Origin: Pseudomonas akapageensis | GTDB taxonomy: Bacteria > Pseudomonadota > Gammaproteobacteria > Pseudomonadales > Pseudomonadaceae | Assembly: GCF_011355085.1 (NCBI RefSeq) | Contig: NZ_VXCP01000016.1 | Location: 248,001 to 312,000 of the forward strand | Length of the DNA stretch: 64,000 bases | Direction of reading: 5' to 3' | Shown here: piece after piece, positions 2,506 to 11,800 of the stretch | Position numbering within the stretch: the stretch's first letter is position 1 | Layout of the letters: each line of letters starts with the position of its first letter | Notes under the pieces: model-generated | The model's input: the letters and a program-made list of their open reading frames with translations, nothing else | The model's database searches: none | What the model was told of the DNA's origin: nothing | Translations under genes and position numbers: made by a program

Positions 2506-4044
<1,539 letters not shown>

Positions 4045-10938: not shown

Positions 10939-11015
10939 ATCGCTGGCAAGCCAGCTCCCACAGGGCACCCACTGAGATCTGTTGTGAACTCTGTGGGAGC
11001 TGGCTTGCCAGCGAT
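10939..11015. repeat. REP doublet (family A)
   Basis: Two inverted REP copies, ATCGCTGGCAAGCCAGCTCC at the left and its inverse GGAGCTGGCTTGCCAGCGAT at the right, separated by about 30 bases. It lies between the orphan hairpin and the DUF3077 leader. Confidence 0.88.
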
Positions 11016-11121
11016 AGCGGACTACCTGTAGGCGAATTCTTTATTTCTTGAGTGACATTTCCCAAGCATAATCAGCACGCCTTGAATGCGGTTGCGCCAG
11101 TGTTTACCGATGGCTAGTCTT

Positions 11122-11364
11122 GCCCAGTCGTTGACAATTCAACGACCGGGCTTGGTAACCCACGGAACGAAAGGCGCAACAGCGCCCATTCTACGATTGC
11201 AGGCGTTTTTTTCATGTCTGCATTTGCGTTTTATGGCGGCTGTGCGCGGGAGGCATTCGTGCCTGCCGGGTTCCTTTCGTCCCGGTTTACCAACCTGCGT
11301 ACAGCTGCCACCCTAATTCGCTTGGTAACGAACGTGGCAGCTCCACTACGAGAGGAGCTACACC
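11122..11364 (+). promoter_or_regulatory. Multi-hairpin leader of the DUF3077 gene (candidate cis-regulatory RNA)
   Basis: The 240 bases before the DUF3077 start contain a chain of inverted repeats. GCCC-a-GTCGTTG pairs with CAACGAC-c-GGGC (11122-11151). GGCGC-AACA-GCGCC spans 11173-11186, with a run of seven T at 11206-11212. AGGC/GCCT and CCGGG/CCCGG hairpins lie around 11250-11285. AGCTGCCAC pairs with GTGGCAGCT (11303-11311 with 11334-11342). AGCTCC pairs with GGAGCT (11339-11344 with 11354-11359), and the last arm contains the ribosome site GAGGAG. The last two stems share bases 11339-11342 and exclude each other. CTTGGTAAC occurs twice. I do not recognise a described riboswitch class. 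Confidence 0.5.
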
Positions 11365-11674: not shown

Positions 11675-11786
11675 CTCGTTCCCACGCTCCGCGTGGGAAT
11701 GCATCCCGTGACGCTCTGCGTTACGCTCCGGGGCGACGACGCTGGAGCGTCTTGCTCTGCATTCCCACGCGGAGCGTGGGAACGAG
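11675..11786. repeat. Palindromic repeat (family B)
   Basis: Starts CTCGTTCCCACGCTCCGCGT and ends GGAGCGTGGGAACGAG, with about 80 bases between the two small palindromes. Same family as the elements at 8517, 29412, 36146 and 48957. Confidence 0.85.
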
Positions 11787-11800
11787 AAAAATAGATAAAA

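Follow-up and report, generated by a model that had tools for sequence, protein, structure and literature searches.

Copies of the phage-type C4 antisense RNA, each with its own target sites, adjoin DUF3077 genes in Pseudomonas

Introduction

RNase P releases C4 antisense RNAs as molecules of about 77 bases, which repress in trans. The class takes in the antisense RNA of the immunity region of phages P1 and P7, the loop b' of which is described as covering a ribosome site, while the segment a' confers specificity (PMC5320573). Such RNAs also occur in numbers within single genomes: the group 1 small RNAs of Acinetobacter baumannii AB5075 comprise 21 C4-like RNAs, with a variable a' and indications that they are processed at a GG site (PMC5320573). 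Related arrangements are described in two other mobile elements. In the IsrK-orf45-anrP locus of the Salmonella prophage Gifsy-1, a 5' RNA resembling the a1/b1 element runs to a terminator, with read-through leading to a C4-like RNA and the regulated gene, and the short IsrK RNA is reported as an activator (PMC4825925). The CI RNA of P4 is likewise an antisense RNA, processed out of its own leader, which pairs both upstream and downstream, through seqA and seqC, and brings about early termination (PMC4825925).

This work concerns a leader RNA and the gene behind it in a stretch of 64,000 nucleotides of Pseudomonas DNA (the window), together with the other copies of this pair in the same genome. 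The leader shares with the C4 RNAs of P1 and P7, as described, the fold, the single-stranded a' and b', the targets a1 and b1 upstream and a2 and b2 downstream, and the position of b2 on the ribosome site (PMC5320573, PMC12197685, PMC8546580); a promoter upstream in the same transcript, predicted in the Pseudomonas copies, is a further likeness. It differs in being chromosomal, in having 49 copies each with a code of its own, and in preceding a DUF3077/DUF6124 gene rather than icd-ant. The nearest precedent for many C4-like RNAs in one genome is the Acinetobacter set, compared here by its description, which leaves the targets open and proposes phage or host RNAs (PMC5320573), whereas every Pseudomonas copy analysed adjoins a matched target gene. 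The Salmonella arrangement, by contrast, is a single prophage locus with an antirepressor gene, and IsrK activates (PMC4825925); the P4 CI RNA, likened by description and not by sequence, acts on satellite replication genes. DUF3077 itself appears in print in PMC9630843, which describes a DUF3077 pseudogene of P. putida that was altered in a furfural-tolerant line. The C4 class is already known, and searches of an open-licence library showed no account of a C4-DUF3077 set in Pseudomonas.

Results

The leader RNA is a C4 antisense RNA

An earlier note on this DNA read 11122-11364 as a structured regulatory RNA that precedes a DUF3077 gene and pairs over its ribosome site, and this reading is borne out by Rfam, by Pfam and by the pairing of b' with b2. 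The inverted repeats it listed all lie at the positions it named, and the region folds at -111.2 kcal/mol (z -6.35; 0/200 shuffles as good), although the list lacked the main C4 stem (11229-11315), which is the largest element. The note took the RNA to be of an unrecognised class. Instead, 11229-11315 passes the Rfam C4 model RF01695 with 87.3 bits against a cut-off of 45, and a riboswitch of unknown class is rejected, as Rfam names the RNA as C4. Folded alone, the C4 reaches -48.8 kcal/mol, with a long outer stem, two inner hairpins and a GG on the 5' side of the stem. Across 45 copies this fold has 98.9% of cells paired and a covariation of 0.404 (0.187 when shuffled), with 15/27 stem pairs changed on both sides. 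Both a' and b' are complementary to sites upstream and downstream of the C4, b2 lying over the ribosome site (Table 1), and the repetition of CTTGGTAAC in two loops, which the note had picked out, turns out to be the C4 target pair a1/a2. The a1/b1-type element RF03163 (c4-a1b1) matches 11114-11166 with 46.1 bits, just under its cut-off of 46.7, and passes that cut-off in five phage relatives (L235, L262, L286, L144 and L238). The isrK model RF01394 reaches 35.6 bits at 11127-11211, below its cut-off of 50.

Table 1. Features of the leader and its gene, in window coordinates
Feature	Position	Strand	Basis or remark
Predicted sigma-70-type promoter, TTGCGC - 17 - TAGTCT	11092-11120	+	Pattern; start predicted near 11127
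Leader 5' hairpin, arms 11122-11134/11139-11151	11122-11151	+	13 positions, 92% complementary; within the RF03163 match
a1, C4 a' target, TTGGTAA	11152-11158	+	7-base complement of a'
b1, C4 b' target, ACGAAAGG	11167-11174	+	8-base complement of b'
Candidate antiterminator hairpin, GGCGC 11173-11177/GCGCC 11182-11186	11173-11186	+	5' arm shares 2 bases with b1
Candidate intrinsic terminator, AGCGCC ... GGCGTT + T run	11181-11212	+	Excludes the GGCGC/GCGCC hairpin; strict pattern; GGCG and seven T at 11202-11212
C4 antisense RNA	11229-11315	+	RF01695, 87.3 bits, E 7.2e-16
C4 b' loop, GTTCCTTTCGT	11270-11280	+	Complementary to b1 and b2
C4 a' segment, TTACCAA	11287-11293	+	Complementary to a1 and a2
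a2, C4 a' target, TTGGTAA	11322-11328	+	a'-a2 pairing
GTGGCAGCT, complement of C4 3' strand 11303-11311	11334-11342	+	9/9 paired; weak covariation
b2, C4 b' target, ACGAGAGGAGC	11348-11358	+	Covers ribosome site AGGAG 11353-11357
Stem over ribosome site	11339-11347/11351-11359	+	89% complementary
98-aa gene, DUF3077/DUF6124 family, target of adjoining C4	11365-11661	+	Pfam

Two stems near the ribosome site had been proposed to exclude one another. The stem 11303-11342 is conserved with weak covariation, 90.1% of its cells being paired (88.1% in shuffles) with 12 two-sided cells against 3.2. The stem 11339-11359, directly over the ribosome site, is likewise conserved, with 85.6% of cells paired, yet its covariation is no stronger than in shuffles, 258/500 of which reach its score. 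A cruder own-versus-other test favoured this stem (0/10,000 permutations), as it also did 11303-11342, and so disagrees with the covariation test on 11339-11359. The conservation of 11339-11359 may reflect constraint on the ribosome site, and as a switch this stem is rejected, being conserved without covariation, against the favourable result of the cruder test. The well-supported pairing over the ribosome site is that of the C4 loop b' with b2.

The surroundings hold other structured elements. Inverted repeats of REP-like type flank the module (window 10942-11018 and 11680-11790). Insertion through such repeats was considered as well, and REP-type patterns lie near 23/49 C4 copies, compared with 25% of random window stretches. 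An SAH riboswitch occurs elsewhere in the window, on the minus strand at 3938-4044 (RF01057, 61.4 bits, cut-off 37).

Forty-nine copies and their genes

The genome carries 49 C4 copies, all above the RF01695 cut-off. An open gene of 84-130 aa begins 46-55 bases 3' of the C4 in 45/49 of them; 41 of these 45 genes match DUF3077 (L005, L014, L015 and L028 do not), and a PDPP/PNPP motif opens 43 (all except L015 and L065). The association is as close when followed from the genes, since 42 of the 43 DUF3077 matches in the genome lie directly behind a C4 and in its orientation. The sole match without a C4 just upstream is L080 (G000:C8:153898-154104). Three copies have lost their gene start or have a doubtful one (L020, L025 and L070). 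A degenerate C4 without a gene of its own (L079 1501-1591; G000:C8:142970-143060) sits directly upstream of the intact copy L023.

The window gene is a weak member of its family, scoring 27.2 bits for DUF3077 (PF11275; cut-off 21) and 28 bits for DUF6124 (cut-off 27); DUF3077 scores in phage relatives rise to 109.7 and 119.2 bits. No antirepressor gene of the P1/P7 icd-ant type follows the window C4, its place being taken by the DUF3077/DUF6124 gene. AlphaFold2 models the 98-aa protein with a disordered N-terminus and a helical hairpin (41-63/68-93), at a mean pLDDT of 75.5. Comparison of this fold returned generic helical hairpins only (best Z 9.6, a designed binder), and PHROGs gave two matches, both of unknown function. 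There was no match for two family members in PADLOC, none in a PDB sequence search, nothing for the window protein in NCBIfam, and no viral structure model with an E of 0.001 or below; tblastn of three family members against a phage collection, with one query lacking its last residues, found no match, and a homologue search with the window protein in viral contigs confirmed no relative. The median dN/dS over 50 close pairs is 0.16 (largest 0.57), and hence the DUF3077-type proteins are kept, under purifying selection.

Each copy has a private recognition code

The recognition segments vary together with their targets. Best uninterrupted pairings of each a' and b' with the flanks of its own copy were compared with those against the flanks of other copies, for 48 copies with the degenerate L079 dropped, and own exceeded other at every site: 18.2 versus 12.3 for a'-a1, 17.9 versus 11.7 for a'-a2, 19.4 versus 13.0 for b'-b1, and 20.3 versus 12.7 for b'-b2, each with 0/10,000 permutations, which ignore shared ancestry among the C4 copies. 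When the four sites were summed, the own copy topped 43/48 rows, and was not the best in 5/48. The covariation check on homologous leaders that the earlier note suggested gave a concordant answer for a'-a2, for b'-b2 and for the C4 fold. In the alignment of 45/49 copies (L020, L025, L070 and L079 dropped), a'-a2 had 97.5% of 315 cells paired and a covariation of 0.840, and no shift of 1-3 columns gave more than 0.151, while b'-b2 had 77.7% of 488 cells paired and a covariation of 0.466, falling to at most 0.201 when slid.

There are 25 distinct a' and 42 distinct b' among the 48 copies, forming 48 distinct pairs, a count that is unremarkable alone, as 7,139/10,000 shuffles of a' against b' also gave 48. 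The 61 protein pairs more than 78% identical have a' in common in 17 cases, b' in 1 and both in 0. Among close pairs, 12 that do not overlap have b' loops 57% identical, compared with 88% for the C4 stems (b' below stems, Wilcoxon p 0.0005) and 90% for the coding sequences; the a' segment is no more divergent than the stems in these pairs (82% versus 88%, p 0.39). Insulation is imperfect, with 52/1,980 non-cognate pairs reaching 90% of the cognate a2+b2 score. Because a change of code in the C4 loop goes with matching changes at the two target sites, each C4 RNA probably silences mainly its own gene. The tandem paralogues L018 and L061 (G000 contig C9) have coding sequences 97% identical and C4 stems only 62% identical, as if leaders had been swapped between copies.

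Transcription and attenuation

A sigma-70-type promoter pattern occurs within 230 bases upstream of the C4 in 46/48 copies, against 10/48 shuffled, and lies 88-139 bases before the C4 in 45 of them, that of L064 being elsewhere. A transcription start downstream of 11303, which would have spoken against the leader as first read, is at odds with the predicted promoter at 11092-11120, which lies upstream. Between b1 and the C4, a strict terminator pattern is present in 16/48 copies (2/48 shuffled), and a GGCGC/GCGCC hairpin follows b1 in 16/48 copies (0/48 shuffled controls); the own b'-b1 pairing enters the 5' arm of this hairpin in 16/16 copies.

From this layout, a single promoter would give one transcript with a1/b1, the C4, a2/b2 and the gene. 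The C4 would be cut out and fold as a small RNA with a' and b' single-stranded, whereupon a' would pair with a2, and b' with b2 over the ribosome site, leaving the gene untranslated. In copies with both the GGCGC hairpin and the terminator, the window copy among them, b'-b1 would also invade the antiterminator arm and favour early termination: as this pairing runs into the 5' arm of the hairpin, it would free GCGCC for the terminator, and the C4 would thereby end transcription early at a1/b1, as well as blocking translation at a2/b2. Most likely, then, translation is the step at which the C4 silences its own gene, with early termination added in a subset of copies. The sign of control could differ, because IsrK, in a related arrangement, is described as an activator (PMC4825925).

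Other genomes and viral relatives

C4 RNAs are widespread in the genus, occurring in 54/59 sampled genomes, with copy numbers of 0 to 54; DUF3077 was found in 45/59 of these genomes and DUF6124 in 47/59. Private codes recur in two further genomes, of which the best-scoring 30 of 55 C4 matches (G049) and the best-scoring 30 of 36 (G010) were analysed: own beats other at all four sites (0/5,000 permutations), with 30/30 distinct code pairs in G049 and 29/30 in G010, the exception being the tandem pair L355/L363. Across the order, 30/195 sampled genomes carry a C4, and the 22 C4-positive genomes outside the family have from at least 1 to at least 6 copies each, with 21 candidates per genome scored. 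Other Pseudomonas have a different gene after the C4, a Bro-N protein with an antirepressor-type domain (L090, by Pfam; L087, L089 and L092 look alike by eye). One regular expression, of unmeasured recall, found no C4 in the ligB regions of 29 relatives (L113-L141), and no relative found has a LigB more than about 65% identical. A looser expression (recall 45/49 own copies) gave 42 matches in 34 of 80 named Pseudomonas loci, which by eye are coding sequence and not C4.

One consensus pattern yielded 84 viral stretches, of which 80 were read, giving 61 C4s past the filter with 32 distinct code pairs. A DUF3077-like frame lies just downstream in 24/61. In L235 the C4 and a DUF3077 gene (109.7 bits) are joined by an integrase-like protein and a regulator of the Ogr/Delta type, a combination known from P2-like phages; in some of the other viral contigs the sequence stops at the gene, and the flank there may be host DNA. 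In the phage and plasmid records L144 (PP003922.1), L145 (KU708005.1) and L149 (NZ_CP077991.1), the C4 stands between integrase or AlpA and primase genes, the layout of a P4-like satellite, and in phage DVM-2008 (L148) it precedes a TPNPP protein adjoining prtR. The b' codes of L144, L145 and L149 recur in chromosomal copies. Because phage contigs carry C4 before DUF3077 genes, the simplest reading is that the C4-DUF3077 modules are likely to be of phage origin. Only 1 of the 32 viral code pairs is common to this genome (0.21 expected), with 0 common to G049 and 0 to G010. A bank of phage codes was accordingly rejected, as viral code pairs are in no clear excess in the three genomes.

Discussion

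The reading that best accommodates these observations, to which we give a probability of about 0.82, is that the leader and gene constitute a self-contained antisense module of the phage-immunity type, with matched codes by which each C4 mainly silences its own gene. The same layout might instead represent a toxin-antitoxin-like set, in which the free protein would be harmful, the C4 would be an RNA antitoxin, and the private codes would keep each antitoxin on its own toxin. We think this unlikely: it would account for one antisense RNA per gene, for the many copies with low cross-match and for proteins kept by selection, but the C4 is predicted to lie on the gene's own transcript without a separate promoter, the modelled protein is a soluble-looking helical hairpin rather than a small membrane peptide, and PADLOC recognised neither of two members. 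The fast divergence of b', and C4 leaders of the same layout in phage and P4-like satellite records (L144, L145, L148 and L149), would suit a bank for phage sensing or immunity, the C4 RNAs hitting incoming same-code transcripts of phages or satellites in trans, or being titrated by them and freeing one protein. Such a bank is decidedly improbable, however, given that the codes are already explained by the adjacent genes and that viral code pairs in this genome show no clear excess over expectation.

A third arrangement would reverse the sign of control, with the terminated a1/b1 RNA binding the C4 or the leader and turning the gene on, while the 11303-11342 stem competes with the ribosome-site hairpin. 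The IsrK precedent (PMC4825925), the terminator at 11181-11212 and the isrK match, albeit below its cut-off, all point this way, yet only 16/48 copies have the terminator pattern and the ribosome-site stem lacks covariation; we therefore regard activation as doubtful, and it could in any case be superimposed on repression instead of competing with it as an explanation. That the copies are scattered remains of prophage immunity, with no present function, was already disfavoured and is very improbable indeed: the RNA and gene are of phage type and a few copies are broken, but 45/49 genes are open, the codes change in step at three places, and the dN/dS values are those of maintained proteins.

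Returning to the self-silencing module, its value lies partly in what earlier multi-copy C4 listings gave no account of, namely targets, which the copies here supply themselves: adjacent, matched at three places, and differing from copy to copy. The copies amount to roughly fifty naturally occurring antisense pairs that share one architecture and lend themselves to measurements of insulation. They also raise the question of why some fifty silenced genes of phage type should be maintained by purifying selection in a bacterium. One tentative answer, put forward with low confidence, is that a phage immunity RNA may have become, in Pseudomonas, a bank of tens of mutually insulated antisense switches, each gating one family member, with selection driving codes apart after duplication, and members being released singly, perhaps through titration of the C4 by a phage or satellite transcript that bears the same code. 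The pairing of antisense RNA and gene thereby offers a testable function for a large, uncharacterised protein family.
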